From positions 2,533,452-2,597,451 of the forward strand of contig KI301992.1 in assembly GCA_000471045.1 (NCBI GenBank): a DNA stretch of 64,000 nt, in the 5' to 3' direction. This DNA is from an actinobacterium LLX17. GTDB lineage: Bacteria; Actinomycetota; Actinomycetes; Propionibacteriales; Nocardioidaceae. The notes below the pieces were generated by a model. It searched no databases. It saw nothing but the letters and a program-made list of their open reading frames with translations, and was not told the origin of the DNA. Below are positions 6,892 to 63,726 of the stretch, one piece after another; the stretch's first letter is position 1; the number at the start of each line of letters is the position of its first letter. The position numbers and the translations under genes were made by a program.

Positions 6892-7166
6892 ATAATGTCG
6901 GCGGTCTCTTCATGTGTCAAGGGTCACCATGTGCGCGGCCGCATGTCGGCATCAGGCAGGCGAAGCAATACAACGGTCATAGCAGTGGGCACTGTCGCGT
7001 GAGCGCCGGTGCCGCCGGGTGCGCCTGAACGATCGCGAACCGCCGACGATTAGGTTGGCAACGGGAACCTGTCGGTGAACGAGAGCTCGGGGTTGCCGGG
7101 ACTGCTGCACGAATAGGTGACATCTGATCTGTGGTGCCGGGAGGCGCCGCTGGAAGGATGTGCACC

Positions 7167-7475
7167 ATGCCCAAGCCCTATCCCCGTGAGTTCCGTGAGG
7201 ACGTCGTGCGGGTTGCTCGTGGTCGTGAGGCCGGGACTCGTCTGGCCGACATTGCCGCCGATTTCGGGATCAGTGAGACGTGCCTGTCGAACTGGATGAA
7301 GGCCGCCGACGTCGAGGACGGACTCAAGCCCGGCACCACCGCGACCGACAACGCCGAGCTGCGGGAGGCGAAGTAGCGGATCCGTCTCCTGGAGCAGGAG
7401 AACGAGGTCCTGCGCCGTGCTGCGGCTTATCTGTCTCAGGCGCATCTGCCGGGAAAAGGCTCTTCCCACTCGTGA
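7167..7475 (+). pseudogene. IS3 OrfA (HTH) interrupted by an amber codon
   Basis: ATG at 7167 with GGAAGG 10 bp upstream. The product begins MPKPYPREFREDVVRVAR, a helix-turn-helix transposase N-domain that binds the IS ends. TAG at 7374-7376 stops it after 69 residues. The same frame then continues with the expected leucine-zipper part (RIRLLEQENEVLRRAAAYL) to TGA at 7473-7475. A single-base change from AAG to TAG would explain the stop. It lies upstream of the frameshift site, so both OrfA and the OrfAB fusion are blocked unless the codon is suppressed. Confidence 0.8.
7451..7457 (+). other. Slippery heptamer for -1 frameshift in IS3
   Basis: G GGA AAA in the zero frame of orfA fits the X-XXY-YYZ rule. 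A slip to the -1 frame gives GGG AAA AGG CTC, which enters the OrfB reading frame exactly (G-K-R-L-F-P-L-V). This is where an OrfAB transposase would be made. Confidence 0.6.
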
Positions 7476-8332
7476 GAGAGCTGGCCGCCGACCGCATCCC
7501 GGTCACGGTCAGCTGCAGGGTGCTCGCGCTGTGTCGTCAGCAGTACTACCGCTGGCTCGCCGCCCCGGTCACCGACTCCGAGTGGGACAACGCCCACCTC
7601 GCGAACGCGATCCTGGCCGCGCATGACGACGACCCCCAGTACGGGTATCGCTTCCTCGTCGACGAGGTCCGCACCGCCGGGTTCGACGTCAGTGAGCGGA
7701 CGGTCTGGAAGATCTGCTCCGAGAACCGGTGGTGGTCATCGTTCGGCAAGAAGCGTGGCCGCAACGGCAAGAAGGCCGGCCCACCAGTGCACGACGATCG
7801 CTTGAACCGCATGTTCCTGGCGGGGCGGGCGAACCAAATCTGGCTGACCGACATCTCCGAACACCCGACCGGTGAGGGGAAGGTTTATCTCTGCGCGATC
7901 AAGGACACCTGGTCGAACCGGATCGTCGGCTACTCCATCAGCGACCGCATGACTTCCGAGCTCGCCGTCAGAGCGCTCGACAACGCCGTCGCCCGACGAG
8001 GTGACGTCGCTGGCTGCATCGTCCACTCCGACCGAGGATCGCAGTTCCGCAGCCGGCGGTTCATCGCCGCGATCGAAGGCCACGACCTGGTCGGATCGAT
8101 GGGCCGAGTCGGAGCAGCAGGCGACAACGCCGCCATGGAATCGTTCTTCGCCCTGCTCCAAAAGAACGTCCTCAACACCCGCCGCTGGGACACACGAGAA
8201 CAGCTCCGGATCGCGATCGTGACCTGGATCGAGAGGACCTACCACCGCCGCCGCAGGCAAGACGTCCTCGGCCGATTGACGCCCATCGAATGGGAAACCA
8301 TCATGAACCAGACCGTCACCCTGGCGGCCTAA
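7451..8332 (+). CDS. IS3-family transposase OrfB (DDE integrase core)
   Basis: About 293 aa from the frameshift point; the open frame itself extends back to 7280. It carries an HTH_21-type region (DPQYGYRFLVDEVRTAGF) and the rve integrase core: first Asp in WLTDISEHPT, second in IVHSDRGSQFRS, and Glu in GDNAAMESFFALLQKN, so all three DDE residues are present. It has no convincing start codon with a ribosome site of its own and would normally be translated as an OrfAB fusion. With orfA broken upstream, activity in cis is doubtful. Confidence 0.85.
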   Translation, partial: GKRLFPLVRELAADRIPVTVSCRVLALCRQQYYRWLAAPVTDSEWDNAHLANAILAAHDDDPQYGYRFLVDEVRTAGFDVSERTVWKICSENRWWSSFGKKRGRNGKKAGPPVHDDRLNRMFLAGRANQIWLTDISEHPTGEGKVYLCAIKDTWSNRIVGYSISDRMTSELAVRALDNAVARRGDVAGCIVHSDRGSQFRSRRFIAAIEGHDLVGSMGRVGAAGDNAAMESFFALLQKNVLNTRRWDTREQLRIAIVTWIERTYHRRRRQDVLGRLTPIEWETIMNQTVTLAA

Positions 8333-8596: not shown

Positions 8597-8620
8597 CTCC
8601 GATCTCTTGAGAGATCACAA

Positions 8621-8643
8621 CGCGGTGGCGGTGGGATTTGAAC
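8621..8643 (-). other. Attachment-site core 1 (3' end of tRNA-Ser)
   Basis: A 23-bp sequence identical to 41224-41246 and in the same orientation. On the minus strand it reads GTTCAAATCCCACC, then GCCACC and G: a T-loop, the 3' T-stem, the 3' acceptor strand and a G discriminator, which together point to tRNA-Ser. The bases on the minus-strand 5' side do not pair as a T-stem, so only the tRNA end is present, as expected for the distal attachment site of an island that integrated into a tRNA gene. Confidence 0.65.
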
Positions 8644-8750
8644 TCGTTCTCGACGATTCTCTGACCTGCGGAGATGCAGGATTCGGTCTGGAATTGCAGT
8701 GATTCTGCATCATGCCGCTACCGCGCACTTCATGCCAGATCACGCAGAAA

Positions 8751-8769
8751 TGTGGGCAGAATGTGGGCA
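8751..8769 (+). repeat. Arm-site-like direct repeat pair (TGTGGGCA)x2
   Basis: TGTGGGCA-GAA-TGTGGGCA: two octamers 11 bp apart, so on the same face of the helix. Copies occur at 41042-41060 (spacer AAA) and 41343-41361 (spacer GAA). All flank the tRNA-like cores at 80-180 bp. The geometry suggests arm-type binding sites of a tyrosine integrase. Confidence 0.5.
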
Positions 8770-9140
8770 CGGATCGGTCTGCCGCGCGCCGATGACCACT
8801 CGGCATCGTCGCGTCCGGGCCACCTCGAGTGGGGAAGGACAGCGGGGCCGACGCGGCTTCCCCACCTCGTCACCCGCCGAAGCCAATCGTAGTGAAGCGT
8901 GCTCGGTAACGGCTGTCGCCCCTGCCTCTCTCCCCGCCGCGGGGATGGCAACGCCGGGGAGCTCCACGGCGGCGTGTGCCGTCGGATTCCATCCGCGCTC
9001 AGTGTTTCTTAAGTGCAGGCGCTGTCAGAGTATGGAGACGTGGTACTACGCATCTGCGATCAGAGACAGTCAGTCGCCCAAGCGTTTGGGCACTGACTTT
9101 GCGATGTGGCCACCAAACGCAGGGGCAGCCATGAGACGGT
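8770..9140. other. Non-coding island edge
   Basis: 370 bp between the arm-like repeats and the first island gene. I see no supported gene; short open frames on both strands lack ribosome sites and recognisable content. It presumably holds the promoter of the 9141 operon. Confidence 0.4.
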
Positions 9141-9605
9141 GTGAAGATGAGAGTGGCAGGCGTCCACATCACGGGGAGCGCGTTGAACATGCTGTTCGCC
9201 GACTGCGCCGGCGGAGGCACGGTCTATATCTCCTCCACACGCATCAAACCATCCAGCAGCCTGCCGGAGGCGCGGATGTTCGCGGACCTCGTCGAGCGCA
9301 TCACGGCGGAATTGCGCTCTCAGCAAGTCGAGGAGGTCGCACTGCTCGAGACGAGGAAGCGAAGCAGCCTCGCGTACAAGGATGCCTATGCGCGCGTCAT
9401 CTCCGTGGCCGCACTGATTTCGGCAGCCAACGGCGCGCAGGTGCCGTTCAATACGCACAAGACCGAAGTGGTGGGCAGGGAGCTCGAACTTCCCGCCAAG
9501 TCACTCCAGACGATCTCCCCGGAAACCATCGCAATTGACTTTAAGCCCACCTATTGGAGCGGTGGCATGGCCGAAGCAGCCGCCGTCGCTGCATTCCGCG
9601 CCTAG
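9141..9605 (+). CDS. Hypothetical protein, possible RNase-H-like fold
   Basis: 154 aa from GTG 9141; the ATG at 9147 is equally possible. No family is recognised with certainty. The start RVAGVHITGSALNMLFAD, the strand VEEVALLETRKR and the helix-rich middle resemble RuvC/RNase-H-like proteins, but a convincing set of acidic active-site residues is not visible. It ends 7 bp before the kinase gene, so the two are almost certainly one transcript. Its position directly inside an island attachment site suggests an accessory function such as phage defence, which is inference. Confidence 0.6.
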   Translation: MKMRVAGVHITGSALNMLFADCAGGGTVYISSTRIKPSSSLPEARMFADLVERITAELRSQQVEEVALLETRKRSSLAYKDAYARVISVAALISAANGAQVPFNTHKTEVVGRELELPAKSLQTISPETIAIDFKPTYWSGGMAEAAAVAAFRA

Positions 9606-9612
9606 GTCCCAG

Positions 9613-10743
9613 ATGAGTGTGAACCCCGTCGACACGTCAGCGCCCGCGGCGCCCGACGATCAGGCACGACGCGTCAACGAGCACGTCCTGCGGCTGCCCT
9701 ACGACTGCATCCGGTCAATTGCTGATGGCATCAACGAGGTCCGAGTATGGGACGACCCGTACCTGGGCTGTCAACACGTCGGCAAGCGGATCGACATCTC
9801 GAACATCCCCGATGACAGTCTGCCCGAGGCCGCGACCCTCCAGGCCGTCAGGCACGACAACATCGTGCCGATTCTCAGCGTCGCCCGCGTCGAGGATCCC
9901 AAATGGGACAAGGCTTCGATGCACGTAATCGAGATCATCACCCCGTTCTTCCCACGAGGGTCCGTCACCGACGCGCTCCTGGACGCTGTCACCTTCAGCA
10001 CCACCGAAGCGATCGCCGTTATTCAGGCGACGCTCCGCGGGCTGTCCTACCTCCACGACGTTCACGGGATCTGTCACCGCGACGTGAAGAGCAACAACAT
10101 CCTCCTGTGCGACGAGAAGGTCGCCCGGGTTGCCGATCTCGGCGTGGCCGGCCTGTTCGACGAGCACGGCGTCGCGACCGCTGTTCAAAACCCGACCCTG
10201 TACAGCTCGCCCGAGTTCGCTGGCACGAAGCAACTCACGGCCGCGTCCGACGTCTGGGGCGTCGGCCTCATGCTCCGTGAACTCCTGGGAGGGAACTTCG
10301 ACTATGCCAGTTACTCCACAGATCACGTCCTGAGCAGACAGGCCCGCCGCCAGGCGATCATTCCCGCGTCAGACCTCGTCCTGCCCATCTGGACGCCGGA
10401 CTCCCTGGCTCGCGTATACAACAAGGCCACCCAGCGAGACCCTGGCAAGCGCTACCAGACCGCGCGCGAGATGGACGAAGCCCTCAGCCGGGCGCTAGCC
10501 GTCGACTGGGTCGAGATCAGCGCCGACAAGCGGTGGGAGGCACCGTTCGTGCACCAGCCGGGCGTCCGCGTCGCCGTAACGGCTACGCACATGTCGCGCG
10601 CGAAGGTCATCAGAATGAAGGGTCTGGTCGACCGTGGCAACGGGTGGCGTCAGGCCATCAGCCCAGAGGACGTGACCGGGCTGCGCACGCCTCAAGCCCG
10701 GAAGTTCTTCAACCAGGCGTCGGTGATCGCGAGTGCCCGCTGA
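9613..10743 (+). CDS. Serine/threonine protein kinase-like protein
   Basis: 376 aa, cytoplasmic, no membrane segment. The kinase domain spans about residues 40-290: a divergent N-lobe, RHDNIVPIL helix-C region, catalytic loop CHRDVKSNN, metal-binding DLG in place of DFG, SPE in place of APE, and SDVWGVGLMLREL. Catalytic Asp, Asn and metal Asp are retained. About 85 residues follow the kinase domain with no recognised domain and no PASTA repeats, unlike housekeeping PknB kinases. Start ATG 9613 is 7 bp after the upstream gene. The 3' end overlaps the convergent gene by about 50 bp. Confidence 0.8.
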   Translation: MSVNPVDTSAPAAPDDQARRVNEHVLRLPYDCIRSIADGINEVRVWDDPYLGCQHVGKRIDISNIPDDSLPEAATLQAVRHDNIVPILSVARVEDPKWDKASMHVIEIITPFFPRGSVTDALLDAVTFSTTEAIAVIQATLRGLSYLHDVHGICHRDVKSNNILLCDEKVARVADLGVAGLFDEHGVATAVQNPTLYSSPEFAGTKQLTAASDVWGVGLMLRELLGGNFDYASYSTDHVLSRQARRQAIIPASDLVLPIWTPDSLARVYNKATQRDPGKRYQTAREMDEALSRALAVDWVEISADKRWEAPFVHQPGVRVAVTATHMSRAKVIRMKGLVDRGNGWRQAISPEDVTGLRTPQARKFFNQASVIASAR

Positions 10744-11147
10744 GCCGCAACCGAGACCGCCTCACGATCCAGCCCTGATAGCAGCATCTGTCGCCCCTGC
10801 GCCCGCCCTCGCTCCGTGACCATCCAGGCGGGGTCGTGACGTCCGCCCGATGGGGCGAGCCAACCGGCTACCACCAGTCGATACGTCGCATCGTCGACGA
10901 CTCGTGACGTGACACCGCGCTTCGGATCCCACATCGCACCAGTGAGGCTGTCGCCCCAGGGCGATTCGCTCAGCTGGTCCAGCAAGTGTTCGACCAGCAC
11001 TTGCACAGCCCAGGAATGGCGAGGCAAGAGCATGCCGTCAGCGGCGTCCTCGTAGGCGCAGATCGCTGCGCCTAGAAGCGCGTCCGAGCCAGCTAGGGCG
11101 CCGAACACAGGGATGTGCCCTGTGTCGAGACGCTCCGGCCTTCCCAT
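10692..11147 (-). CDS. Hypothetical protein, divergent partner of the HTH regulator
   Basis: 151 aa from ATG 11147 (MGRPERLDTGHIPVFGALAG). No family recognised. The middle looks like a winged-helix-like region (WDPKRGVTSRVVDDATYRLVVAGWLAP...DPAWMVTERGR), so a DNA-binding or regulatory role is possible. It converges on and overlaps the kinase gene and is transcribed away from the HTH gene at 11212 across a 64-bp intergenic region full of inverted repeats. It may be part of the kinase cassette. Confidence 0.6.
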   Translation of the reverse strand: MGRPERLDTGHIPVFGALAGSDALLGAAICAYEDAADGMLLPRHSWAVQVLVEHLLDQLSESPWGDSLTGAMWDPKRGVTSRVVDDATYRLVVAGWLAPSGGRHDPAWMVTERGRAQGRQMLLSGLDREAVSVAAQRALAITDAWLKNFRA

Positions 11148-11156
11148 GCCTTCATT

Positions 11157-11206
11157 GTTACATGTTTTCGGTAACTGGAAACACCTTTCATGTTTCGAGT
11201 AACATG
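11157..11206. promoter_or_regulatory. Divergent operator region with paired palindromes
   Basis: Between the two divergent starts lie GTTAC...GTAAC (arms 11158-11162 and 11170-11174) and CATGTT-TCGAGT-AACATG at 11189-11206, a perfect 6-bp inverted repeat. Both share the word CATGTTT. They are likely binding sites for the HTH protein encoded at 11212, giving autoregulation of both genes. Confidence 0.55.
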
Positions 11207-11211
11207 GTGAG

Positions 11212-11508
11212 GTGGGACGACCTCGAAATGCAATGGCACAGTTGTCGAAGACTGTCTTCGGCCAGGTCCACCGCCTCGTGATTATGGAAGCGCTGGCCCG
11301 CGCAGACGGTCCAATCAACCCGACCGAACTAGCTCAGCAGCTCGGTTTTGCTTCGCAGAGCGCCTTGCAAGCGTCGTTGCGTGACCTTGAGGAGGCGGGC
11401 CTCATCGAGCGGTGCCCGGACTCTGGCGGCCGGACGTACTACGACCGGGTGGACAGTGCCGGCTGGGCGTTCGCCGAAGAGTTGGCGGAGCGGTCGCGAG
11501 AGGCGTAG
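11212..11508 (+). CDS. Winged-helix (ArsR/MarR-like) transcriptional regulator
   Basis: 98 aa from GTG 11212. A winged-helix DNA-binding domain fills the protein: helices LSKTVFGQVHRLVIMEAL, PTELAQQLGFASQSALQASL as recognition helix region, LEEAGLIE, and wing GRTYYDRVD. No metal-binding cysteine pair is seen. The GTG follows GGTGAG closely, so translation may be nearly leaderless. It probably regulates itself and the divergent 10692 gene through the palindromes between them. Confidence 0.75.
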   Translation: MGRPRNAMAQLSKTVFGQVHRLVIMEALARADGPINPTELAQQLGFASQSALQASLRDLEEAGLIERCPDSGGRTYYDRVDSAGWAFAEELAERSREA

Positions 11509-11650: not shown

Positions 11651-12199
11651 ATGACAGTACAACCGCTGGACCAGGAGACCTACCTGCCCGACGACGCCAA
11701 CGAGGTCGCCGCGGTCCTGAGCTTCATCAGTCGCCTCGAAGCCAAGACTGGCACTACGCCCGCGTCCCGCTACCTGATGAGCGGCCCTGGCGAGCACGAG
11801 CAAGTCGAGATCCCTGAGCACGCCTACCAAGTCCTCCGCCAGGTACTTCAGGCGATGCAGCGCGGGAAGGCGGTAACTGTCGCCCCACAAAACACGGTCC
11901 TGACCACGCAGCAGGCCGCGGATCTACTCGGCGTCAGCCGGCCCACGGTCGTGAAGCTTCTCGATGCCGGCCAGATCCCTTACGAGACTCCCGGCAAGCG
12001 TCGTCGGCTAGTGAAGCTCGACGATGTGCTCGCATACCGCGCCGCGCGCCGAGACGCGCAATACCAAGCGCTCATGGACACCGCGGCGGATTACGACGAC
12101 CCGGAATCGACCGAAGTGATGGCATCACGCTTGAAGAAGGTTCGCTCCGAACTTGGCGCTGCCCGCCGGGCAACCGCTCAGGCCACCACCGCAGGCTGA
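11651..12199 (+). CDS. HTH (excisionase/HTH_17-type) antitoxin
   Basis: 182 aa with GAGGAG 7 bp upstream of ATG 11651. Residues 80-135 form a MerR/excisionase-like helix-turn-helix (VLTTQQAADLLGVSRPTVVK followed by GKRRRLVKLDDVLAYRAAR). The N-terminal 70 residues may be the dimerisation or toxin-binding part. It overlaps or abuts the PIN-domain gene downstream, the usual order antitoxin then toxin. Repeat operators directly upstream support autoregulation. Confidence 0.82.
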   Translation: MTVQPLDQETYLPDDANEVAAVLSFISRLEAKTGTTPASRYLMSGPGEHEQVEIPEHAYQVLRQVLQAMQRGKAVTVAPQNTVLTTQQAADLLGVSRPTVVKLLDAGQIPYETPGKRRRLVKLDDVLAYRAARRDAQYQALMDTAADYDDPESTEVMASRLKKVRSELGAARRATAQATTAG

Positions 12200-12224
12200 C
12201 CTTTGTCGATGTGAGGATGGACGC

Positions 12225-12800
12225 CTGTTCGCGGCCGTCCTCGACACCTGCGTCCTCTGGCCGAGCCTGCAACGCGACTTCCTGCTCTCTCTGGCGATCG
12301 AAGGTCTCTATCGGCCGCTTTGGAGCGAAGCGATCCTTGAGGAACTGCATCGTCACGAGCAGCTGAAGTTGATCGACCGCGGCCACAACGAGACAGCCGC
12401 AGCAACTAAGGCCGACTACCTGCTCGATCAGATGCGCTCCGCCTTCGGAGACGCGATCGTTCAAGACTGGGAGGCTCTCGAAGGCTCGTTCGGTCTGCCC
12501 GACATCGACGACGAGCATGTCCTCGCCGCAGCAGTCGTCGGAGATGCCGGCGCGATCGTCACCGAGAACTTCAAGGACTTCCCGCCCACGGCGGTGCCGT
12601 CCACGACCCAGATCATCAGCGCCCGAGACTTCGCCGCCGACGCTGTCGATGTGAACCCCGCAAGCGCCCTCCGCGCCCTCGGCCAGCTGTCCACCCGTCA
12701 CACCCGAACCCCACACACCCCTGCAGAGATCCTCGACATCCTCGTCACTCGCTACGGGATGAATGAGGTCGACGAGATCCTGCGACCAATTGTCGACTGA
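12225..12800 (+). CDS. PIN-domain ribonuclease toxin (VapC-like)
   Basis: 191 aa if read from CTG 12225, where members of this family normally begin (M-F-A-A-V-L-D-T-C-V-L-W). No ATG, GTG or TTG in frame is nearby; the next is ATG 12153 inside the antitoxin gene, which would add 24 unlike residues. GTGAGGATGG lies just upstream as a possible ribosome site. PIN acidic residues are seen in VLDTCVLW, SEAILEEL, LPDIDDEHVLAAAV and VTENFKDF. The toxin likely cleaves RNA and is held by the HTH protein. An ATG-to-CTG change that weakens expression is possible. Confidence 0.78.
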   Translation: MFAAVLDTCVLWPSLQRDFLLSLAIEGLYRPLWSEAILEELHRHEQLKLIDRGHNETAAATKADYLLDQMRSAFGDAIVQDWEALEGSFGLPDIDDEHVLAAAVVGDAGAIVTENFKDFPPTAVPSTTQIISARDFAADAVDVNPASALRALGQLSTRHTRTPHTPAEILDILVTRYGMNEVDEILRPIVD

Positions 12801-41218: not shown

Positions 41219-41223
41219 CGTCA

Positions 41224-41246
41224 CGCGGTGGCGGTGGGATTTGAAC
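41224..41246 (-). other. Attachment-site core 2 (3' end of tRNA-Ser)
   Basis: Identical over 23 bp to 8621-8643. On the minus strand it again reads as T-loop, T-stem 3' strand, acceptor 3' strand and G discriminator of tRNA-Ser, without the rest of the tRNA. It separates island A from the conjugative island B. Confidence 0.65.
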
Positions 41247-41342
41247 GCGTCCTGGGCCACGTCTGATCTGCACGGATGCCCCGATTCGGCTCGTACTCGG
41301 GGCGATTCGATCGTGTCAGGTTCACGCCGGATCAAGGAAAAG

Positions 41343-41361
41343 TGTGGGCAGAATGTGGGCA
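41343..41361 (+). repeat. Arm-site-like direct repeat pair (TGTGGGCA)x2
   Basis: TGTGGGCA-GAA-TGTGGGCA 119 bp to the right of core 2, the same arrangement as at core 1 (130 bp). It would be the left arm region of island B. Confidence 0.5.
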
Positions 41362-41477
41362 CGGACAAGGGCGCGTCCTTCAGTTCTCCGAACGCAGTGA
41401 TTTCAAGCGGGACCGAGCCCCGAGCTACGCACCGGCTATCGCCGCGTCGTTATCGTCGGAAAGCCAACTTCACAACT

Positions 41478-46855: not shown

Positions 46856-49800
46856 ATGACGATGTCCATCCACAAGCTCTCGGCCGGGTCGGGGTACGAC
46901 TACCTGACCCGTCAGGTCGCGGCCATGGACGGCACCGAGAAGGGCCACACCTCGCTGGCGTCGTACTACACCGAGAGCGGCGAGACCCCCGGACAGTGGA
47001 TCGGGTCCGGGCTGACTGGGATCGAGGGCCTGGAGGCTGGCGACGTCGTCACAGCCGAGCAGATGAAGGCGCTGTTCGGCTACGGGTTCCACCCGCTGGC
47101 CGATGAGCGCCTCGCCGCGCTCGAGGTCACCGCAGGACCGGCCGAGGTGTGCAAGGCGCAGCGGCTCGGCACGCCGTACAAGGTCTACGAGGCCGACGTC
47201 CCGCCCTACCGGATCGAGGTCGCCCGCCGGCTCGAGGACCTCAACCTCGCTGCCGGACGGCCCCGCGACGCAGTCGCCTCGGTCGACGAGCGCGCCCAGG
47301 TGCGCACCGAGGTCGCCCGCGAGTATTTCGAACGCGAGCACGGCAGAGCCCCGGACAATCCCCGGGAACTGGCGTCCGCGATCGCGCTCCACTCACGGCC
47401 GAAGACGACGGCCGTCGCCGGCTATGACCTGACGTTCTCGCCCGTCAAGAGCGTCTCAGCCCTCTGGGCCGTCGCCGACACGTCGACCGCAGCGACCATC
47501 GAGCGCGCGCACAACGCCGCCGTCAAGGACGCCCTGATGTTCATCGAGCGCGAAGCGCTCTACACCCGACTCGGCACCAACGGCGTCCGCCAAGTCGACG
47601 TTCACGGCCTAGTGGCCACCGCGTTCACCCACCGCGATTCGCGCGCCGGCGACCCCGACCTGCACACCCACGTCGCGGTCGCCAACAAGGTGCAGGCCGT
47701 CGAGGACGGCCGCTGGCGAGCCATCGACGGCCGGCTGATGTTCAAGGCCACGGTCGCGGCCTCCGAGGTCTACAACACCGCACTGGAACGGCACCTGTCT
47801 TCGAGTCTCGGGGTGCGGTTCGAGGAGCGACCCGGTGTCGATCAACGCAAACGACCGGTCCGTGAGATCGTCGGCGTCGACCCCCGCCTGAACGCCCGCT
47901 GGTCGACTAGGCGGCAGAGCATCGAGCGACGCCGTGACGACCTGGTCGCCACGTTCCAGGCCGAGCACGGCCGCCCGCCCACACCGGTGGAGACGTTCCA
48001 GCTCGCCCAGCAGGCGACGCTGGAGACGCGGGAGGCCAAGCACGAACCGCGTTCCCTCGTCGAGCAGCGCACCGTCTGGCACGCCGAGGCCGTTGAGGTC
48101 CTGGGTGGTGTTAGGGGCGTCGATGCAATGGTCCGTACCGCGACCGCGCCGCCTGTCGTTGACGCCGCACAAGCGGCCGGCCGGCGCGTCGATGCCGCGT
48201 GGGTCTCGACCGCGGCCGACCGCGTACTGGACCAGGTCCAGACCCGCCGCAGCACCTGGCAGCGTTGGCACCTGGTCGCCGAGGCGCAGCGCCAAGCCCG
48301 CCGCGGTGACGTCACCGCCGAGCAGATCCCAGCGCTGGTTGGTCTCATCGTGGAGGAGGCCACCAGCCGGTCAATGCTGATCAAGAGTGACCAGGACTCC
48401 ATCGACGAACCCGCCGAGCTGCGCCGCCTCGACGGCCAGAGCAAGTACGCCGTCGCCGGCTCAGACCTCTACACCTCCACGGAGATCCTGGCCGCTGAGC
48501 AGCGTCTGGTGGCCGCTGCTGGCCGTCACGACGGCCGCCGGATCGCACCCGAGACCGTTGAGCTCGCACTGCTGGAGAGCGCGGCCAACGGTGTCGAGCT
48601 CAACGCCGGCCAGGCCGCGATGGTCCGCGGCATGGCGACCAGCGGAGCCCGTGTGCAGGTCGGCATCGCCGCCGCCGGCACCGGCAAGACCACCGCCATG
48701 CAGGTCCTCGCCCGCGCGTGGGAAGAGGGTGGTGGCACCGTCATCGGCCTGGCCCCCTCGGCGGCGGCTGCCGCCGCGCTCGGGGACTCCATCGGCACCT
48801 CGACCGACACGCTCGCCAAGCTCGTCGATGACCTGGACCGGGGCGCATCGCCGGGCATGGTCGATGCGATCGGACCGGGCACCATGGTCGTGATCGACGA
48901 AGCTGGCATGGCCGACACACTCAGCCTCGACGTCGCGATCGCCGGCGTGCTGCAGCGCGGTGGGTCCGTGCGGCTGATCGGTGACGACCAGCAGCTCGCC
49001 GCCATCGGCGCCGGTGGTGTCCTGCGCGACATTATCGCCACGCACGGGGCGCAGCGCTTGTCCGAGCTGATGCGGTTCTCGGACCCCGCAGAGGGCGCCG
49101 CGACCATCGCACTGCGCGCCGGCCTGCCCGAAGCGCTGGGCTACTACTTCGACCAGCAGCGCGTCCACGTCGGCGACCTCGCGACGTCGACCGACGGTGT
49201 CTTCGACGGGTGGCTGACCGACCGCAGTCAGGGCAAGGACGCCATCATGCTGGCCCCGACCCGTGACCTGGTCGCCGACCTCAACGCTCGAGCGCGCACC
49301 GCCCGCATCATCGCTGGCGAGGTCGACCCGGCCCGCGCCGTGCGGCTGGCCGACGGCAGCACCGCCTCGGTCGGCGACGTCGTCCTGACCCGCCAGAACG
49401 ACCGCCGGCTGCGGTTGTCGCCAACGGACTGGGTCAAGAACGGTGACCGGTGGATCGTGACCGAAGCGGGCCGTGGGGCACTCGGCGTGCGGCACCTGGA
49501 GTCCGGACTGAACATCACCCTCCCGGCCACCTACGTCGCTCAGAACACCGAGCTGGGTTACGCCTCGACCGTCCACGCCGCCCAGGGCCTGACCGCCGAC
49601 ACGATGCACGGTCTGGTCATCGGCGAGGAGAGCCGCCAGCAGTTCTACACGATGATGACCCGCGGCCGGCACGAGAACCACGCCCACCTGGTAGTGGCAG
49701 CAGACGGTGATCCGCACTCCCTGATCCGTCCCGAGTCGATCCGCCAGGCCTCGGCCGCGGAGATCCTCGAAGGTGTCCTCGCCCGCGACGAGTCCCCCAA

Positions 49801-52537
49801 GTCGGCCACGACGATCGCCCACGAAGCAGCCGACCCGGCCGTCCAGCTGAACGCGGCGACCGACCGCTATGTCGACGCCCTCTACGTCGCCGCTGAGACC
49901 GTCATCGGCGTCGAGACCGTCGCCGGCATCGACAACGGGGCCAAGGTCTTGGTGCCCGGCATCGCCGACGAGGCAGCCTGGCCGGCCCTGCGCTCCCACC
50001 TGCTCCTGCTTCAGGCGCAAGGGGCAGACGCCGTCGGTGTGCTGGCCGATGCTGTTGCCGAGCGGGAGGTGGAGTCGGCCGACGACCGCGCCGCGGTGCT
50101 CGACTGGCGACTCGATCCCACCGGCCGCAGGGGCGCACCCACCGGGCCCCTGTCCTGGGTTCCTGGGATCCCCGGACGCATCGCTGCCGACCCAGTCTGG
50201 GGCCCCTACCTGGCTGGGCGCTCGGCTCGAGTCGAGGCCCTGGCCCTCGCGGTCCGGGACGGTGCCACCGCGGGCGACTCCCCGGCCTGGGCTCGCCAGA
50301 CCCGCATCTCACCGACCAGCGGCCTCGCCGGCGACGTGGCCGTGTGGCGCGCCGCGACCGGCGTCGACGAGACCGACCGGCGCCCCACCGGACCACGCCA
50401 GCAGCAGAAGGCCCAGGTCCTCCATCAGCGCGACCTCGACCGTCGCCTCAACGCCGGTCGCAGCCCCGCCATGGACGAGTGGGGCGCCCTGATCCACCGT
50501 CTCCACCCCCGCCTGGACACATTCACCCCTCTGCTCGCCGAACGGCTCGCCGCGATCAGCAGGTCAGGGGTGAACGCCGCCGACCTCCTCGAGCGCGCCG
50601 CAGGCGAAGGCCCGCTCCCCGACGAGCACGTGGCCGCGGCCTTGTGGTGGCGCATCGCCCGACACCTGTCCCCCGCCGTGGCGACCGAACAGGCGACCAG
50701 CGATGGCCACGTGAGTGCGCCGTGGTCCGGCCTTCTCCTGGAGCACCTCGGAGCCGAGGCGGCCGGGCAGGTCACCGAGTCGCCGTGGTGGCCGACCCTC
50801 GTGGCCACCGTCGATCGTGCCCCCGCCCGCGGTTGGGCCGTCGAGCAGCTGCTCGACCTCGCCAAGACCAGCGACGTCGACGACGTCGACCTGGCCCAGG
50901 CGATGATCTGGCGCATTGGGATCGTCACCGATCCGCCCCCGCTCGAGGACGAGCCGACGCCCGACGAGCACCTCCCACCCGAGGGAATCGACGACCTGTT
51001 TCCCCTCGACGAGCTCGCCCCGCCCGTCGCGGTCACCGACCGCACCGACCCCGTCGACGCACTCGCCGACGTTGCGCGCAACCGGGATCTCCTCGGCCCA
51101 CTCGAGCCGGCCGACACCGACTTCTGGCGCCAGTTCGACCGCGTCATGGAGGTCCAGTCCTCTCCCGTTCCCATCGACCGGCTCCGCGCGATCAACGAGG
51201 CCGCGGCCGACTACTTCAAGCAGCAGTTCACCGGCTCCTGGGCCCGCACCTACCTGCACGAACGACTCGGACTCGACCTCGCCGGCGACCAACGATTCCG
51301 ACCTGGCTACGCCCCGGCCGGGTGGACCAACCTGGTCGACCACCTGCGCACCCAGGGGTTCACCGACACCGAGATGGTCGCTGCCGGCGTCGCGAAGACC
51401 GCCTCGACTGGCCGGCTCATCGACCGCTTCCGCGACCGCGCCGTCCTGCCGGTCATCTCCGACGGCCAGATCCTCGGATTCGTCGGCCGCCGCAACCCGA
51501 CCGCGACCAGCGACAAAGCTGGACCGAAGTACCTCAACACCCCCGACACCGTCCTGTTCCACAAGGGCGCCCAGCTCTACGGCATCGGCGACGAACACAT
51601 GATGACCGGCGCCATCCCGGTCGTCGTAGAGGGACCGCTCGACGCGATCGCCGTCACGATCTCGTCCGCCTCAGCGTTCGTCGGAGTCGCCCCCCTCGGG
51701 ACCTCCATGACCGAGGAACAGGCCGCCCAACTCGCCCAGTTTGGTGCCGACCCGGTGATCGCGACCGACGGAGACCTCGCCGGACGGATCGCGGCCGAAC
51801 GCGCCATGTGGCTCCTGGCGCCCCAACAGCTGACGGCCCAGCTGTCGCCGATCCCCGCAGGCGACGACCCGGCCAACCTGCTCGAGAACAAGGGCGCAGC
51901 GCAACTCGTTGCCCTCCTGCAGCAGCCCACCGTCCTGGCCCGGACGCTCGTCGACGAGCGCTTGGCCAACATCACCGATCACGCTGCAGCACTCACCGGT
52001 GCCGCCGAGGTCATCGCCGCACTCCCAGCGCGCGACTGGGAAAACCTCATCGACCACGCCGCCCAAGGAGACGACAACACCGCCGCGGAGCTCCGCGGCC
52101 ATGTCGCGACCGCAGCCGCACGCTTCAACGACGACCCACGCGGCTACAGCACCGACCAACTCGCTCGGGTCAGCGACGTCCGACAGCGCCTCGAGGGTCA
52201 CAAGCACGCGGCTGTGGCTGACCGTTGGGCACCGCTCGGCCGCCAGCTCGACGCCCGCCTCACGGCTTGTCGGGACTGGCCAGCCACCGCGGCCCTCCTG
52301 CAAGAACTTCACGAACAGGGCCACGACGTCACTCGACTGTCTCAGCAGCTCGTTGCAAACGACCCGCTCGAGCCTGCCCCGGCCCGGGACCTCCGCTACC
52401 GCCTTGCCGAGCGACTGACCATCGAGCCGTCGTCCCTCTCCCGCTCGAGCACGGTGCCAACGACGCAGCGTCCCAACCCCGGCGCCGGGCCGATGACGAG
52501 ACCAAAGCACGGCCAGGATCGCGGCCCTCGCCGGTGA
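46856..52537 (+). CDS. traA: MobF relaxase-helicase-primase (TraA)
   Basis: 1893 aa. Residues 1-350: TrwC/TraI relaxase with N-terminal tyrosines (SGYDYLTRQ) and the 3-His metal site in AFTHRDSRAGDPDLHTHVAV (about 255-275). Residues 550-1000: superfamily I helicase with Walker A AAAGTGKTT (about 605), VVIDEAGMAD, LIGDDQQLAAI and YASTVHAAQG. Residues about 1445-1680: a DnaG-like primase part (LIDRFRDRAVLPVI, KYLNTPDTVLFHKG) and Toprim with VVEGPLDAIAVT, ATDGDLAGR and DDPANLL. It nicks oriT, unwinds the strand and may prime its complement in the recipient. Start ATG 46856 or 46862. Confidence 0.9.
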   Translation: MTMSIHKLSAGSGYDYLTRQVAAMDGTEKGHTSLASYYTESGETPGQWIGSGLTGIEGLEAGDVVTAEQMKALFGYGFHPLADERLAALEVTAGPAEVCKAQRLGTPYKVYEADVPPYRIEVARRLEDLNLAAGRPRDAVASVDERAQVRTEVAREYFEREHGRAPDNPRELASAIALHSRPKTTAVAGYDLTFSPVKSVSALWAVADTSTAATIERAHNAAVKDALMFIEREALYTRLGTNGVRQVDVHGLVATAFTHRDSRAGDPDLHTHVAVANKVQAVEDGRWRAIDGRLMFKATVAASEVYNTALERHLSSSLGVRFEERPGVDQRKRPVREIVGVDPRLNARWSTRRQSIERRRDDLVATFQAEHGRPPTPVETFQLAQQATLETREAKHEPRSLVEQRTVWHAEAVEVLGGVRGVDAMVRTATAPPVVDAAQAAGRRVDAAWVSTAADRVLDQVQTRRSTWQRWHLVAEAQRQARRGDVTAEQIPALVGLIVEEATSRSMLIKSDQDSIDEPAELRRLDGQSKYAVAGSDLYTSTEILAAEQRLVAAAGRHDGRRIAPETVELALLESAANGVELNAGQAAMVRGMATSGARVQVGIAAAGTGKTTAMQVLARAWEEGGGTVIGLAPSAAAAAALGDSIGTSTDTLAKLVDDLDRGASPGMVDAIGPGTMVVIDEAGMADTLSLDVAIAGVLQRGGSVRLIGDDQQLAAIGAGGVLRDIIATHGAQRLSELMRFSDPAEGAATIALRAGLPEALGYYFDQQRVHVGDLATSTDGVFDGWLTDRSQGKDAIMLAPTRDLVADLNARARTARIIAGEVDPARAVRLADGSTASVGDVVLTRQNDRRLRLSPTDWVKNGDRWIVTEAGRGALGVRHLESGLNITLPATYVAQNTELGYASTVHAAQGLTADTMHGLVIGEESRQQFYTMMTRGRHENHAHLVVAADGDPHSLIRPESIRQASAAEILEGVLARDESPKSATTIAHEAADPAVQLNAATDRYVDALYVAAETVIGVETVAGIDNGAKVLVPGIADEAAWPALRSHLLLLQAQGADAVGVLADAVAEREVESADDRAAVLDWRLDPTGRRGAPTGPLSWVPGIPGRIAADPVWGPYLAGRSARVEALALAVRDGATAGDSPAWARQTRISPTSGLAGDVAVWRAATGVDETDRRPTGPRQQQKAQVLHQRDLDRRLNAGRSPAMDEWGALIHRLHPRLDTFTPLLAERLAAISRSGVNAADLLERAAGEGPLPDEHVAAALWWRIARHLSPAVATEQATSDGHVSAPWSGLLLEHLGAEAAGQVTESPWWPTLVATVDRAPARGWAVEQLLDLAKTSDVDDVDLAQAMIWRIGIVTDPPPLEDEPTPDEHLPPEGIDDLFPLDELAPPVAVTDRTDPVDALADVARNRDLLGPLEPADTDFWRQFDRVMEVQSSPVPIDRLRAINEAAADYFKQQFTGSWARTYLHERLGLDLAGDQRFRPGYAPAGWTNLVDHLRTQGFTDTEMVAAGVAKTASTGRLIDRFRDRAVLPVISDGQILGFVGRRNPTATSDKAGPKYLNTPDTVLFHKGAQLYGIGDEHMMTGAIPVVVEGPLDAIAVTISSASAFVGVAPLGTSMTEEQAAQLAQFGADPVIATDGDLAGRIAAERAMWLLAPQQLTAQLSPIPAGDDPANLLENKGAAQLVALLQQPTVLARTLVDERLANITDHAAALTGAAEVIAALPARDWENLIDHAAQGDDNTAAELRGHVATAAARFNDDPRGYSTDQLARVSDVRQRLEGHKHAAVADRWAPLGRQLDARLTACRDWPATAALLQELHEQGHDVTRLSQQLVANDPLEPAPARDLRYRLAERLTIEPSSLSRSSTVPTTQRPNPGAGPMTRPKHGQDRGPRR

Positions 52538-52670
52538 ATGTTCTGACCTGGCAGAAGCGGTCCGCGCCGTCACAAGCGGCTTCGTTGTCCCTGTCCATCA
52601 CGAACGCCTGACGCCTATGGCAGCACGTTCAATCACCTGAACTCGCCGGTCAGCTATGGGTAGGACTTGC

Positions 52671-54173
52671 TCATGTGTCCTCTCCCAGATGATTGCTGAC
52701 GAACTGCTGCGCACCGTGGGGTAGAGACCCCCAATGCCCGCCGAAACCGAACGACTCGCCCCTCGCCGCGGTGTACACCTGCGCCATCGCCGTTGCAATC
52801 TCGCGCTCATCGGAAGTGGGGAACATCGCCGCGCGCGCCTCCGGATCGTCGGCGACGACCTCGAACGCTGGATCAGCCCTGTCCTGGTTCATCGCCGAGG
52901 CGGCCGCGTACCCGCTTCCGTGATGCTGACCCTCGGCCGCCACGATCAAGCAGTACAGAATGTCGAACTGGCACAGTGAATTGAAGAGCGCATCGTCGTG
53001 CGCGAGGTCGCCGGGGTCGGACACCGCGCCGTCGGGGACATCAGGACGCATTGCCGGTTGATCGCTCATCAGGACGCGCGCGGCGGAGATCATCATCCCG
53101 CCCTTGCCCTTCGGAAAGAGGTCCGCCCGGCTCGCGTCAACCTGACCGTGCCTGATCCAGGACGAATAGATGTACATGTCACCGCCGGGCGGGTACGGGC
53201 GAAGTGCGAGGTCGTGAACGGCCGCCCACTGTCGAAGGCGGACCGCAAGGCTGCCAAGGACGTACACGCGCGTGATGATGTCGAGTCGCGCGGCGGCGTT
53301 TCCGTGACCGAACTTGGCATAGGCGTCGAAGAGGCTGTCGATGGCTTTCGAGGCAACAGCGGCGCGCTCGAAGTACATCGCGTGAGCCGCGAGGATAGTG
53401 ATCTTGTCCAGAGCTGCCAGGTGCTCATCGGGGTTGCTGCTGACGAGTGCGGCGGCCCGTCCAAGGAATTGCCTCAGTCGGATGTCGCTGTCAACTTCCA
53501 AGTGGGATACCACCGCCTCGCCGAAGGCGTCGTCTGCCATCTCCAGAGACAGCGGGACGAGGGCAGGCCCAGGGCCGCCGGACCGCATGGCAGCGGCTAA
53601 GTCAGCGATCAGCGAGTCGACCTGTGCGCGGGCTTCCTCGCGGAGTCGTTGGTCACGGAGGCGCAGTAGGTCGTTCCAGTGCGCGTGGCGAAGCGGGGTG
53701 TTCTTGGCCCCTTCGCGGACCAGGACATCTCCCTCACGAAAGACCACGACTTGCTTGCCATTTGGGCCCGGAAACTGGCCCAACTTACTCATCGGCACGG
53801 GAAGCCCATCGCGGTGGTGCGGGAGGTGAATCAGGACAACTTCATGCCCATCGACTTCGTGGATCTGCGAGATCGCATGGACCTCGCCTTCGATGTACTT
53901 CCTGATCATGTCCCCCAACCGGGCACCGTCGAAGCGAGCACGATCGGTAATAGTGCCGGTCGGCAGAGCTAGGGTGCCGTCGTCGTTGACGCCGACAAGG
54001 ATGTAGCCGCCAGGTGGTCGATTGCTCATTGAGACCGCGTCTTTGACGAAATTCAGCTCGTCGTGCTTGTCCGTCAAGTCCAGTTCGGCTTTGAACTCCA
54101 GATGTGTCTGCTCGGGCAACCGAAGCAGCTCGACGAGCTTCTCCCGGTCAGTTCGGCCATCAACGATGATCAC
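52671..54173 (-). CDS. AlbA_2 (Schlafen-type) domain protein, cargo
   Basis: 500 aa. Residues about 20-150 match the divergent-AAA_4/AlbA_2 domain: EQTHLEFKAELDLTDKHDEL, FVKDAVSMSNRPPGGYILVG and VNDDG. The remaining 340 residues are helical with no recognised domain. It lies between the relaxase and the conjugation operon, in opposite orientation to the relaxase, and is not a known transfer gene. AlbA_2 proteins on mobile elements include regulators and phage-defence effectors; function here is unknown. Convergent with the relaxase over 133 bp without an obvious hairpin. Confidence 0.72.
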   Translation of the reverse strand: MIIVDGRTDREKLVELLRLPEQTHLEFKAELDLTDKHDELNFVKDAVSMSNRPPGGYILVGVNDDGTLALPTGTITDRARFDGARLGDMIRKYIEGEVHAISQIHEVDGHEVVLIHLPHHRDGLPVPMSKLGQFPGPNGKQVVVFREGDVLVREGAKNTPLRHAHWNDLLRLRDQRLREEARAQVDSLIADLAAAMRSGGPGPALVPLSLEMADDAFGEAVVSHLEVDSDIRLRQFLGRAAALVSSNPDEHLAALDKITILAAHAMYFERAAVASKAIDSLFDAYAKFGHGNAAARLDIITRVYVLGSLAVRLRQWAAVHDLALRPYPPGGDMYIYSSWIRHGQVDASRADLFPKGKGGMMISAARVLMSDQPAMRPDVPDGAVSDPGDLAHDDALFNSLCQFDILYCLIVAAEGQHHGSGYAAASAMNQDRADPAFEVVADDPEARAAMFPTSDEREIATAMAQVYTAARGESFGFGGHWGSLPHGAQQFVSNHLGEDT

Positions 54174-54385
54174 GTCAGATCACCGTGCCCGCCAGCGTCC
54201 GACATGCGCTAACACGACCGGCGCGGAGAGTGCCGAGACCTTCCGAAGGGACTGCCCGCGCAACGATCCGGCCGGGTGGCGACTGCGGATGCTTCTCGCT
54301 TCGTCAATCTTGCTCGTCCGAGGAGCTCCGTGCGAATGCCCCGCGATCATGGTCGAACTCTACGAGACCCGCCGGACAAGTGTGC

Positions 54386-55039
54386 CTACGTCATCACCTC
54401 GCCTGTTTCGGTGTCAACCAGGCTCAGGCGCGGGGCAGAGAGTTTCTGTGGGGCCGGCTCCTTGTCGGCGGCCGACTTCTGGACATCACCGGCGTACGCC
54501 GCGCTGCGGGCGGCGGACTCTTCCCGGCCCAAGTGGCGGTTGAAGCGACCTCGAGCGGGCCAGTCGCTCGCGTGGGTACGATCGCAGTGCGTCTTGACCC
54601 GAGCCTTCATCCGCTCGATGAAGTACGGCAGCGCGTAGCGGTGCCATTCCTCGAGCTCATTGCTCAAGAGTGCTTGTTGGGCGGTTCGTCGTTGGTCGGC
54701 CAAGACGGCGATCTCGTTGACCAGGTGGGCGTGCTTGGGCCAGCACGCCGGGATCGTGTCGGCCGGGTCGTAGACGTACTGGTGGTTGATCCAGACCACG
54801 ACGGCTTCCAGCCACGTCCAGAGGTCGGTGCGCATGGCCGGGTCGGTGCAGGTTGACGGGATCCAGGGGCGAGGCAGTGCTGAGGTGTCCCCCAGCGCTC
54901 GCAGCTGGTCGTCGGTGCCGTTGGCCGCGATGTCGAGCTCCCGGTATGCCAGCGCCACCCGGGGCGGTGGCTTCGGGAACGGTTGGACGAGCAGTGAGGC
55001 GTCTTCGGCGGCGTCGTTGGTTGATCTCACGAGTTCCAC
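54386..55039 (-). CDS. DUF4913-like protein of conjugative elements
   Basis: 217 aa. The centre (LWTWLEAVVVWINHQYVYDPADTIPACWPKHAHLVNEIAVLADQRRTA) matches the DUF4913 pattern of small proteins that accompany actinobacterial conjugation genes. Soluble; function unknown. It overlaps the coupling-protein stop by 13 bp and is the last gene of the minus-strand transfer operon. Confidence 0.7.
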   Translation of the reverse strand: MELVRSTNDAAEDASLLVQPFPKPPPRVALAYRELDIAANGTDDQLRALGDTSALPRPWIPSTCTDPAMRTDLWTWLEAVVVWINHQYVYDPADTIPACWPKHAHLVNEIAVLADQRRTAQQALLSNELEEWHRYALPYFIERMKARVKTHCDRTHASDWPARGRFNRHLGREESAARSAAYAGDVQKSAADKEPAPQKLSAPRLSLVDTETGEVMT

Positions 55040-56460
55040 CCCGAGAGCCCGCGTTGACGGGCCTGTTCGACCGCCGCGGTGGTGCGGGTCGAGACGGTGA
55101 TCTGACGCCGTCGCGCCTCATCTGTCTGAGCGCGAGTCGCCGCTTGCTGCTCGAGCAACTCCTTGCCGTCGCGCCCGTCGAGGCACCGCTTGAGCTTGGC
55201 GACGATCGGACGACCGTTCTCGGCGATCACGAGCGCGTGGCGTTCCTCGAGCTGGCGCACCTCGGCGCCGGTGAGGATTGGCATGTCGTCGCTGCTGGTG
55301 GTCCGTCCACCCGAGCCTGAGTGGCGGTTGCGGCGGGTCACGCGCACGGGGCCGAGGAGGTCGGAGACTTCCTGGTTGAAGGTGACGTCCTTGGAGCCTC
55401 CGAACAGGCACAGGACGTTGGTCAGACCGAACAGTGCCCGTGCCTCGTTCTCCCCGAAGATCGCGGCGAGTTGACGCCACGTCTGGGCGGCGTAGATGAA
55501 CGACAGGCCGAGCGCGCGCTCGTTGGCCATTCGGGTCCGCAGGGTCGGCAGGGGTGCCGTTGACGGCAGCTCGTCGAGCACGGCGGTCACCGGCGGACAA
55601 AGCCGCCCGTGCGGGGAGGCGCTGGCGAGCTCGAGCGCGGTATCGAGGACGTGCTCGGCCACGGCCGTCATCAGCGGCGATGCCGAGGCGTACGGGTCTT
55701 CTCGGCCGAGCAGGTAGATCGTGCCGCCCTGGGCCAGGATCTCGGCGAAGTTCGTGGCCCGTTGACGTGGGCCGGGAACGCAGCGACGCCGAATGTCGGC
55801 CTGGAAGAACAGCGCCATCGCCTGCTGCACCGTGGTGACGGTGTTGCCGGCCGTACGGTCGTCACCGTGCAGGGCGCCGTGCAGCAGCCCGTCCCAGTAC
55901 GGGGCGGCGTGAGGGTGCTCGCGCAGGACCTCCTCCGGCTCGGTGGCCGATCGCGGATTCGCCACCCACTCCAAGACGTGGTCGAGGTTCCGTCCCGACA
56001 GGGCAGCGGCGTGGAAGAACGCCTGGATCACCTTGGCTGCCTCGGCCGCGTAGAACCGGGACGCGTCGTCGCCGACGGCCGAACCCTTGACCGTCCCAGC
56101 GGTGAACGCTTTGGCCCGGCGCTCTGCGCGCATCGGATCGACACACCCCTCGATCGGATCGAAGACCATCTCGGGCAGCCCGGGCGCCAGACCGAACGGG
56201 TCGAGCACCACGCACGGACGTCCGTCCGTCGACCGGGCGCCGATAGTCAGCAGCAGGTCCTCGGCCTTCGTCATCGTCACGAGAGCGGCCCCGGGCGCGC
56301 CGAGGAGGGCCGGGACCAGCACGTCCAACGTCTTGCCCGACCCCTGGGGGCCGATCACGCCGGCGGTCCGGTCCCACGGCACCCACAACTCCTTGCCGGT
56401 CCGCGGCTCATGCGCCACACCCAGACGCCAGCCGACCTGTGACGGATCAAAGTTCCTCAT
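55027..56460 (-). CDS. Type IV coupling protein (VirD4/TraG-like ATPase)
   Basis: 477 aa. Walker A VIGPQGSGKTLDVLVPAL at about 35-50, Walker B VTAVLDELPSTAPLPTL, then FIYAAQTWRQL, the VirD4 pattern. The usual N-terminal membrane helices are absent from this protein and are supplied by the next gene upstream, a two-helix membrane protein. It links the relaxase-DNA complex to the secretion channel. ATGA overlap at 56457-56460. Confidence 0.87.
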   Translation of the reverse strand: MRNFDPSQVGWRLGVAHEPRTGKELWVPWDRTAGVIGPQGSGKTLDVLVPALLGAPGAALVTMTKAEDLLLTIGARSTDGRPCVVLDPFGLAPGLPEMVFDPIEGCVDPMRAERRAKAFTAGTVKGSAVGDDASRFYAAEAAKVIQAFFHAAALSGRNLDHVLEWVANPRSATEPEEVLREHPHAAPYWDGLLHGALHGDDRTAGNTVTTVQQAMALFFQADIRRRCVPGPRQRATNFAEILAQGGTIYLLGREDPYASASPLMTAVAEHVLDTALELASASPHGRLCPPVTAVLDELPSTAPLPTLRTRMANERALGLSFIYAAQTWRQLAAIFGENEARALFGLTNVLCLFGGSKDVTFNQEVSDLLGPVRVTRRNRHSGSGGRTTSSDDMPILTGAEVRQLEERHALVIAENGRPIVAKLKRCLDGRDGKELLEQQAATRAQTDEARRRQITVSTRTTAAVEQARQRGLSGWNS

Positions 56461-56927: not shown

Positions 56928-56960
56928 ATACTTCCAAGGCCACCGAAGCCGCCTGGGTGG

Positions 56961-61095: not shown

Positions 61096-61147
61096 CGGTG
61101 GGACTTCCTCTCATCGCCGGTGCGGACTGTTGCTCCTCGCTAGCTGC

Positions 61148-62617: not shown

Positions 62618-62620
62618 GGT

Positions 62621-63442: not shown

Positions 63443-63726
63443 CCGTCCCCCAGGAACCCGTTCAGGATGCCGGGCAGGATGAGGTAGGCGATCGCCGCGC
63501 CCAGCACGACGAACACCGAGATGATCCCCACCTTGGACGCGTGCGGCATCGAGAAGACCCGGCCGCCGACGACGGCGCCGACGGCGACGGCCATTCCGGC
63601 GATCATGAGCGCGATGACGCCCCACAAGATGTAGCCGTGAAGCTCGTCGACGTGGACCTGGGCTCCGGGAGGAGCCACGGGGCAGACGGCGGCGAGGGAG
63701 GAAGAGAAGTCGGTCTTGGTGATCAT
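63433..63726 (-). CDS. Small two-helix membrane protein of the T4SS
   Basis: 97 aa with two hydrophobic segments (ILWGVIALMIAGMAVAVGAV and GIISVFVVLGAAIAYLILPG), similar in size and topology to VirB2/TrbC-type pilin-like or PrgI-like subunits. The start overlaps the upstream stop by ATGA. Confidence 0.7.
   Translation of the reverse strand: MITKTDFSSSLAAVCPVAPPGAQVHVDELHGYILWGVIALMIAGMAVAVGAVVGGRVFSMPHASKVGIISVFVVLGAAIAYLILPGILNGFLGDGCV

Follow-up and report, generated by a model that had tools for sequence, protein, structure and literature searches.

Structure of the cassette

We examined a stretch of 64,000 nt from the actinobacterium LLX17 (Nocardioidaceae; contig KI301992.1), referred to throughout as the window, which carries a candidate defense cassette composed of a small RuvC-like protein, here termed pseudo-RuvC, a soluble Ser/Thr protein kinase, and a third gene converging on the kinase gene from the opposite strand, with a winged helix-turn-helix (wHTH) regulator beyond it (Table 1). 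All four genes lie where a first-pass annotation of the same DNA had placed them, and its description of a soluble kinase with HRD and DLG motifs, separated by only 7 bp from the preceding open reading frame (ORF), was also accurate, with no PASTA domain reported in Pfam and NCBIfam scans. In the first ORF, the ATG at 9147 is a better fit than the annotated GTG to the “MRVxG” start of pseudo-RuvC homologs. Searches of Pfam, NCBIfam, PADLOC and PHROG gave no credible match for the window’s pseudo-RuvC or for its convergent protein.

The order pseudo-RuvC, kinase, convergent gene is common to all 14 actinobacterial loci found (the window; L007/L002 in genome G250; L026 in G609; L027 in G430; L039 in G788; L040 in G915; L041 in G961; L042 in G888; L043 in G925; L044 in G1064; L062 in G068; L031 and L032, which are from Streptomyces and nearly identical to each other; and L014, on a Curtobacterium plasmid). 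Two alphaproteobacterial loci, L016 and L018, bring the total to 16. The gene set is more than a chance assembly, because homologous sets occur in other genomes and held-out members of both new families are recovered by profile: profiles built without L014 and L062 retrieve their convergent proteins (E values of 1e-19 and 1e-22) and their pseudo-RuvC proteins (2e-28 and 5e-28). The identity matrices of the three proteins from 13 loci (L007 left out) gave r values of 0.90-0.92, with none of 5000 permutations as high. Joint occurrence in other genomes was the test that the first-pass annotation had set beforehand, and the genes do recur together elsewhere, with some revision of its four-gene set: three of the genes form the core, present at 14 of 14 loci, while the wHTH gene, with a homolog at 2 of the 13 others, does not belong to it. 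The convergent gene, previously listed as hypothetical, has the orientation assigned to it and is a part of the cassette rather than a bystander, since it is present in every actinobacterial locus found.

Table 1. Coordinates of the cassette genes and associated features in the window
Feature	Position	Strand	Remarks
Pseudo-RuvC	9141..9605	+	154 aa; annotated start GTG, probable real start ATG 9147
Soluble Ser/Thr protein kinase	9613..10743	+	376 aa; conserved C-terminal extension; PF00069 E 2e-29
Convergent core gene	10692..11144	-	~150 aa; tentatively winged-helix; AlphaFold2 (AF2) predicted local distance difference test score (pLDDT) 89.6
Antisense overlap of the kinase and convergent-gene 3′ ends	10692..10743		52 bp in the window
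Operator-like intergenic stretch	11145..11211		67 bp; GTTAC/GTAAC palindromes
wHTH regulator (MarR/ArsR-like), optional fourth gene	11212..11508	+	Pfam MarR_2 E 8e-9; ArsR models also match
Attachment-site-like repeat outside the cassette	8620..8774		blastn against second copy at 41223-41365

A RuvC fold without the first catalytic aspartate

The structure of pseudo-RuvC was predicted with AF2 from 12 family members (mean pLDDT 90.3, predicted template modeling score (pTM) 0.87), and the solved structures closest to the model are RuvC resolvases (Foldseek E 1e-9), which superimpose on it with Z 18.0 over 148 of the 154 residues and a root-mean-square deviation of 2.2; a PDB sequence search also returned RuvC, at E 0.006. 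The RNase-H-like fold that had been proposed for this protein is thus upheld, and is specifically that of RuvC. The catalytic Asp7, present in all four distinct genuine RuvC proteins aligned alongside, is missing from all 15 aligned family members; the L062 protein, outside this alignment, has a His at the corresponding position as judged by eye. The C-terminal Asp pair is gone as well, with the sole exception of one Asp in each of two alphaproteobacterial proteins. As modeled, the 154-aa protein is a pseudo-RuvC, having the predicted fold of RuvC without its first catalytic Asp.

Pseudo-RuvC shares its fold with the Holliday-junction resolvase over nearly the full length, and its family profiles also match genuine ruvC genes (3 in a phylum-level search, those with ruvA/ruvB-like neighbors by eye, and 10 in a class-level search), yet the two differ in context as much as in catalytic residues: a kinase gene, in place of ruvA/ruvB, adjoins the RuvC-like gene at 16 of 16 loci, and a separate, full-length true RuvC is encoded at another place in the window’s genome. 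Together, the lost residue, the kinase-side context and the separate true RuvC rule out a housekeeping RuvC; the structural match that might have assigned a plain housekeeping role turned out to be to a protein of which this one is a catalytically degenerate relative. The same evidence makes an active nuclease effector unlikely, because pseudo-RuvC is nuclease-like in fold only; the first-pass view of a nuclease-like partner for the kinase therefore stands for the fold and fails for the likely activity. Among the structural matches there are further proteins with a RuvC fold, such as TEFM and the Spt6/Tex domains, which are not known to be catalytic and provide a precedent for a binding role.

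The kinase

The catalytic residues of the kinase (Lys58, Glu72, HxDxKxxN and DxG) are invariant in 14 of 14 aligned cassette kinases. In PADLOC, the window kinase scores against PD-T4-6 (E 2.9e-33) and Stk2 (E 6.5e-12), and the best match of the kinase from the alphaproteobacterium Methylocystis is mad6 (E 1e-41). Assignment of the window kinase to three known types was considered and rejected: it scores 96.5 bits (cut-off 450) with the NCBIfam equivalog for PASTA kinases (PknB/Stk1), 64.8 bits (cut-off 460) for MAD6 of the MADS system, and 14.4 bits (cut-off 990) for the BREX protein PglW, a multi-domain protein with NERD nuclease, pseudokinase and kinase parts, as compared with 376 aa here.

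The convergent gene and its antisense overlap

The AF2 model of the convergent protein (pTM 0.82) has a winged-helix-like core and a long C-terminal helix, and its structural matches are headed by MukE (Z 9.4), followed by repressors of the MarR/MntR/DtxR type (Z about 7.5-8.7). As these fold matches are only moderate, its assignment to the winged-helix type is tentative. We regard the gene as coding because the protein is conserved outside the overlap across distant loci and because held-out members are recovered by profile. Between L031 and L032, the part of the gene outside the overlap has accumulated 12, 4 and 28 changes at codon positions 1, 2 and 3, respectively, and, as an antisense control in the same pair has shown, the codon-position pattern alone cannot distinguish the strands in the overlap phase.

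At all 14 actinobacterial loci the 3′ ends of the convergent and kinase genes overlap by 52-136 bp, a length that is always 1 mod 3, so that third codon positions face each other. This phase is kept despite identities as low as 18% for pseudo-RuvC, 23% for the kinase and 9% for the convergent protein; because the loci are related, it was inherited in common and does not count as independent evidence at each of them. It is unusual for a kinase gene to end in a phase-locked antisense overlap, which points to selection for coupling the expression of both genes. On the Curtobacterium plasmid (NZ_CP106880), the convergent gene, at 6993-7451 of L014, is missing from the incomplete gene table, perhaps having been left out owing to the overlap with the kinase.

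Distribution

The cassette is sporadic in actinobacteria. Among 391 genomes of the window’s order, the pseudo-RuvC profile matches 7, six of which are outside the set from which it was built. A scan for the convergent gene, in a genome draw of equal size carrying the same labels, gave 18 matches, 7 of them strong and 11 weak and partial (20-25 bits, dropped from the count); since the strong ones are profile members, which match by construction, only the absence of any match above 25 bits in the other 384 genomes is informative. At the class level, the cassette was found in 3 of 394 genomes once 10 true RuvC proteins (9 recognized by motif and one by eye) had been removed from 13 matches, and at the phylum level in 3 of 396 after removal of 3 true RuvC proteins from 6 matches; weak matches in four genomes (E 1e-3 to 5e-3) lie outside these counts. 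Single-sequence scans of plasmids and genome contigs with the 154-aa protein found nothing, and a second genome-contig scan, based on strict kinase patterns and hence not a census, gave 2 loci, both from Streptomyces, out of 50 stretches. An origin from phages was considered and rejected: no relative was seen in pattern-based scans of viral contigs, nor in a tblastn search of phage records with the 154-aa protein. In G250 (L007, 7761-9245), the kinase gene has been split by an insertion containing a DDE-transposase-like ORF (a weak Pfam match), and both the convergent gene and pseudo-RuvC remain open despite this event.

A related pair inside type I restriction operons

Plasmids of Methylocystis parvus and Novosphingobium resinovorum encode a small RuvC-like protein and a kinase inside a type I restriction operon, in the order S, M, GIY-YIG (only in Methylocystis), S, the small protein (153-155 aa), kinase, HsdR and metalloprotease. 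These small proteins also lack Asp7, and their homology to the actinobacterial form is argued from gene order together with an hhalign match to pseudo-RuvC (probability 91, E 9e-7, 142 columns). No ORF of the convergent family was found by profile in either L016 or L018. Of 129 plasmid records with kinase matches, 6 were examined, and a small RuvC-like gene precedes the kinase in half of them (3/6); the other three have no such gene, and neither family was found there by profile. One of the latter, from a Rhizobium plasmid, was set aside as encoding an unrelated large multidomain protein.

Immune neighbors and the operator-like DNA

Among neighboring genes selected by hand, immune genes were recognized next to or around 8 of the 16 loci, one of which has a candidate system only. 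The L043 cassette lies beside QatABCD, for which all four genes were tested, and the L040 cassette beside a Qat system tested for QatA and QatD. In L007, a PaeR7I-type restriction-modification (RM) pair and a type IIG fragment adjoin the cassette; in L031, RmrA and RmrT, which we take to be Rosmerta, are found directly upstream, with copies 97-98% identical in L032. The candidate genes are those of PDC-M19, next to L044, and L016 and L018 are enclosed by the type I RM operons described above. The two Qat-associated cassettes, in L040 and L043, are very different from each other, and each sits just downstream of qatD on the convergent-gene side.

The wHTH gene has been kept at 3 of the 14 actinobacterial loci, including the window, with syntenic homologs in L039 (58% identity) and L040 (55%). 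The words GTTAC/GTAAC occur three times within 80 bp in the window (11145-11224), as compared with 0.03 per 70 bp window-wide, and three times within 72 bp in L039 (background 0.03-0.07 per 70 bp); in L040 the word occurs once within 125 bp and, by eye, has a degenerate partner. The first-pass annotation had the wHTH gene diverging from the kinase gene over paired palindromes; the palindromes are indeed there, but the divergent partner is the convergent gene. Another palindrome, with 6-bp arms (GCCCAA-GCGT-TTGGGC), occupies window positions 9076-9091, 50 bp upstream of the pseudo-RuvC ORF.

Such surroundings raise the main rival to the defense function that we favor. CapK is a kinase activated by single-stranded DNA that phosphorylates CapS, a DNA-binding repressor of the neighboring immune operon (PMC13373217). 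By analogy, the cassette pair could sense DNA damage and phosphorylate a winged-helix repressor, either the convergent protein or the wHTH protein, thereby freeing the promoter of the adjacent immune operon. CapK/CapS and the cassette have in common a kinase beside a DNA-binding-type protein, palindromic operators, and RM or immune neighbors (PMC13373217); CapK and CapS act in this manner beside immune and RM operons, and the cassette loci likewise adjoin Qat, Rosmerta and RM genes, with clusters of GTTAC/GTAAC words in the space that separates the convergent gene from the wHTH gene in the window and L039. Against this, the described system consists of a GHKL kinase and a STAS-wHTH protein (PMC13373217), in place of which we find a Hanks-type kinase, a pseudo-RuvC and a convergent overlapping gene whose product has no recognized STAS domain: Pfam reported neither the GHKL nor the STAS family for the cassette proteins of the window, where the kinase belongs to PF00069. 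Moreover, an immune operon was not recognized at 8 of the 16 loci, and the restriction-embedded loci have no convergent-family ORF that could be found. We therefore consider a controller of this kind unlikely.

Mobility

Mobility genes near the cassettes include integrases in L027 and L062 and TniQ in L014 and L031. A tRNA gene is located at most 2.5 kb from the cassette in L039, L041, L042, L062 and L027 (5 of the 12 cassette loci scanned); none was found in L014, L016, L018 or the scanned stretch of the window’s own genome, nor in the window itself. In the window, a 155-bp repeat at 8620, only 0.4 kb outside the cassette, matches its second copy with 70% identity by blastn, has identical ends of 24 and 23 bp, the first of which resembles the 3′ end of a tRNA by eye, and has a third, partial copy at 41036. 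The direct repeat bounds about 32.6 kb comprising the cassette and, by eye, a CoA-ligase/ABC-transporter cluster. The earlier claim that the cassette lies at an island edge is borne out to the extent that an attachment-site-like repeat pair is found near it, and the edge itself is plausible. An IS3-type transposase (HTH_Tnp_1 plus rve integrase core; 7131-8332) lies just to the left of the repeat. Further along, at 46856-64000, the window encodes a 1893-aa fusion of a TrwC relaxase with helicase and primase/Toprim domains, as well as a TraG/type IV secretion system coupling protein, and this part probably belongs to an integrative conjugative element.

Neighbors of this sort (integrase, resolvase, TniQ and tRNA genes), together with the conjugation genes in the window, would be expected if the cassette regulated the life cycle of its mobile element, with damage-triggered excision or transfer, and the defense genes were merely co-carried. 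However, the loci do not share one type of mobile gene (tyrosine integrase, TniQ, insertion sequence, or none recognized), and the related pair resides inside type I RM operons, making such a role quite improbable.

Directly after the window cassette, at 11651-12800, an HTH_17/excisionase-type gene is followed by a PIN-domain gene (a match to the RSP_2648-family model below cut-off), resembling a toxin-antitoxin (TA) pair; tblastn gave no match to this pair in other cassette loci. The cassette could itself be a TA-like addiction module, in which the kinase would be the toxin, the convergent protein the antitoxin and pseudo-RuvC an adaptor, the benefit being maintenance of the element. Its sporadic presence (7/391 genomes), on a plasmid and beside integrases, the conserved antisense overlap, the G250 kinase gene interrupted by a transposase-like ORF, and the TA-like layout of the pair next to it in the window would all agree with addiction. 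Nevertheless, a kinase and its RuvC-like partner occur inside RM operons without the convergent gene, simple addiction leaves pseudo-RuvC with no obvious part to play, and immune neighbors are frequent; we regard this explanation as improbable.

A possible function in defense

The reading that we favor, as a tentative one and short of probable, is that the cassette may be a mobile three-gene anti-phage module in which pseudo-RuvC would recognize abnormal DNA and thereupon switch on the kinase; it draws on genomic neighborhoods and on analogy with known systems. Pseudo-RuvC would bind branched or otherwise abnormal DNA arising from phage replication or from restriction of invading DNA, and in the DNA-bound state would activate the kinase, which in turn would phosphorylate host or phage proteins and halt growth (abortive infection). 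The convergent protein would keep the module off, as a repressor and/or an antagonist, and the antisense overlap would hinder full simultaneous expression of the kinase and convergent genes. In type I restriction operons, the related pair without a convergent gene may form a second line that is linked to the restriction system. We suppose that the kinase acts as an effector on its own, because of this restriction-embedded form without the convergent gene and because of the loci at which no immune operon was recognized. The fullest version of the proposal, in which a Holliday-junction resolvase, now catalytically dead, senses DNA structure on behalf of a eukaryote-like kinase, the docking of branched phage DNA turns the kinase on and leads to shutdown of the cell, a convergent winged-helix partner holds the switch off, and a related core operates inside type I restriction operons of another phylum, is rather doubtful when taken as a whole.

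Several observations weigh against a defense module of this kind. The neighboring genes evaluated for immune functions were picked by hand, with no matched control loci, and no immune operon was recognized in the window, L014, L026, L027, L039, L041, L042 or L062. The canonical glycine-rich loop is missing from roughly the first eight of the actinobacterial kinases, and the PADLOC matches to PD-T4-6 and mad6 span the kinase domain only and come without a comparison to housekeeping kinases. For the convergent protein, Foldseek gave no match at E <= 0.001, and its family profile has no credible match among PDB sequences (aldo/keto reductases at E 0.02, AdcR at 0.32). As to the breadth of the family, a direct BLAST comparison of the Methylocystis small protein with the actinobacterial form was not significant (E 0.075), and the actinobacterial profile scores the restriction-embedded proteins (E 9e-6 and 0.009) no better than genuine RuvC (4e-7 and 0.002), for which reason their membership in the pseudo-RuvC family is unsure; judging by sequence, they could represent a RuvC branch of their own that has a kinase as its partner.

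Comparison with other kinase-based systems

Stk2 mediates abortive infection, and the cassette shares with single-gene defense kinases such as Stk2 and PD-T4-6 a soluble Ser/Thr kinase domain; unlike them, its kinase has pseudo-RuvC and the third gene beside it at all of the actinobacterial loci, and the matches to these systems span no more than the kinase domain. The KKP kinase-kinase-phosphatase modules are mobile-element-borne Ser/Thr kinases that reportedly have an anti-phage effect, but the cassette has a single kinase and no recognized phosphatase. MAD6 is the kinase of the methylation-associated MADS system and, as noted, is the best counterpart of the Methylocystis kinase in PADLOC; a full MADS operon was nonetheless not recognized, the one mad2 match, in L039, being a methyltransferase-type stretch. 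The PglW (BREX type 2) and DndF kinases were proposed as suicidal back-up effectors (PMC12839542), and the resemblance lies in the coupling of a kinase to DNA-targeting defense; as described there, they are fused multi-domain proteins, whereas the cassette consists of separate small proteins (PMC12839542).

The first-pass annotation did not recognize this combination, and we likewise found no published pairing of a RuvC-like protein with a kinase, with a subscription or preprint report that we did not see being possible. The type of enzyme is familiar from kinase-based defense modules, unlike its sensor-like partner and the convergent gene that overlaps it. The cassette would bring to such modules two protein families that have no usable match among known families, and would make it possible to test whether a bacterial immune kinase can be triggered by a dead junction resolvase.

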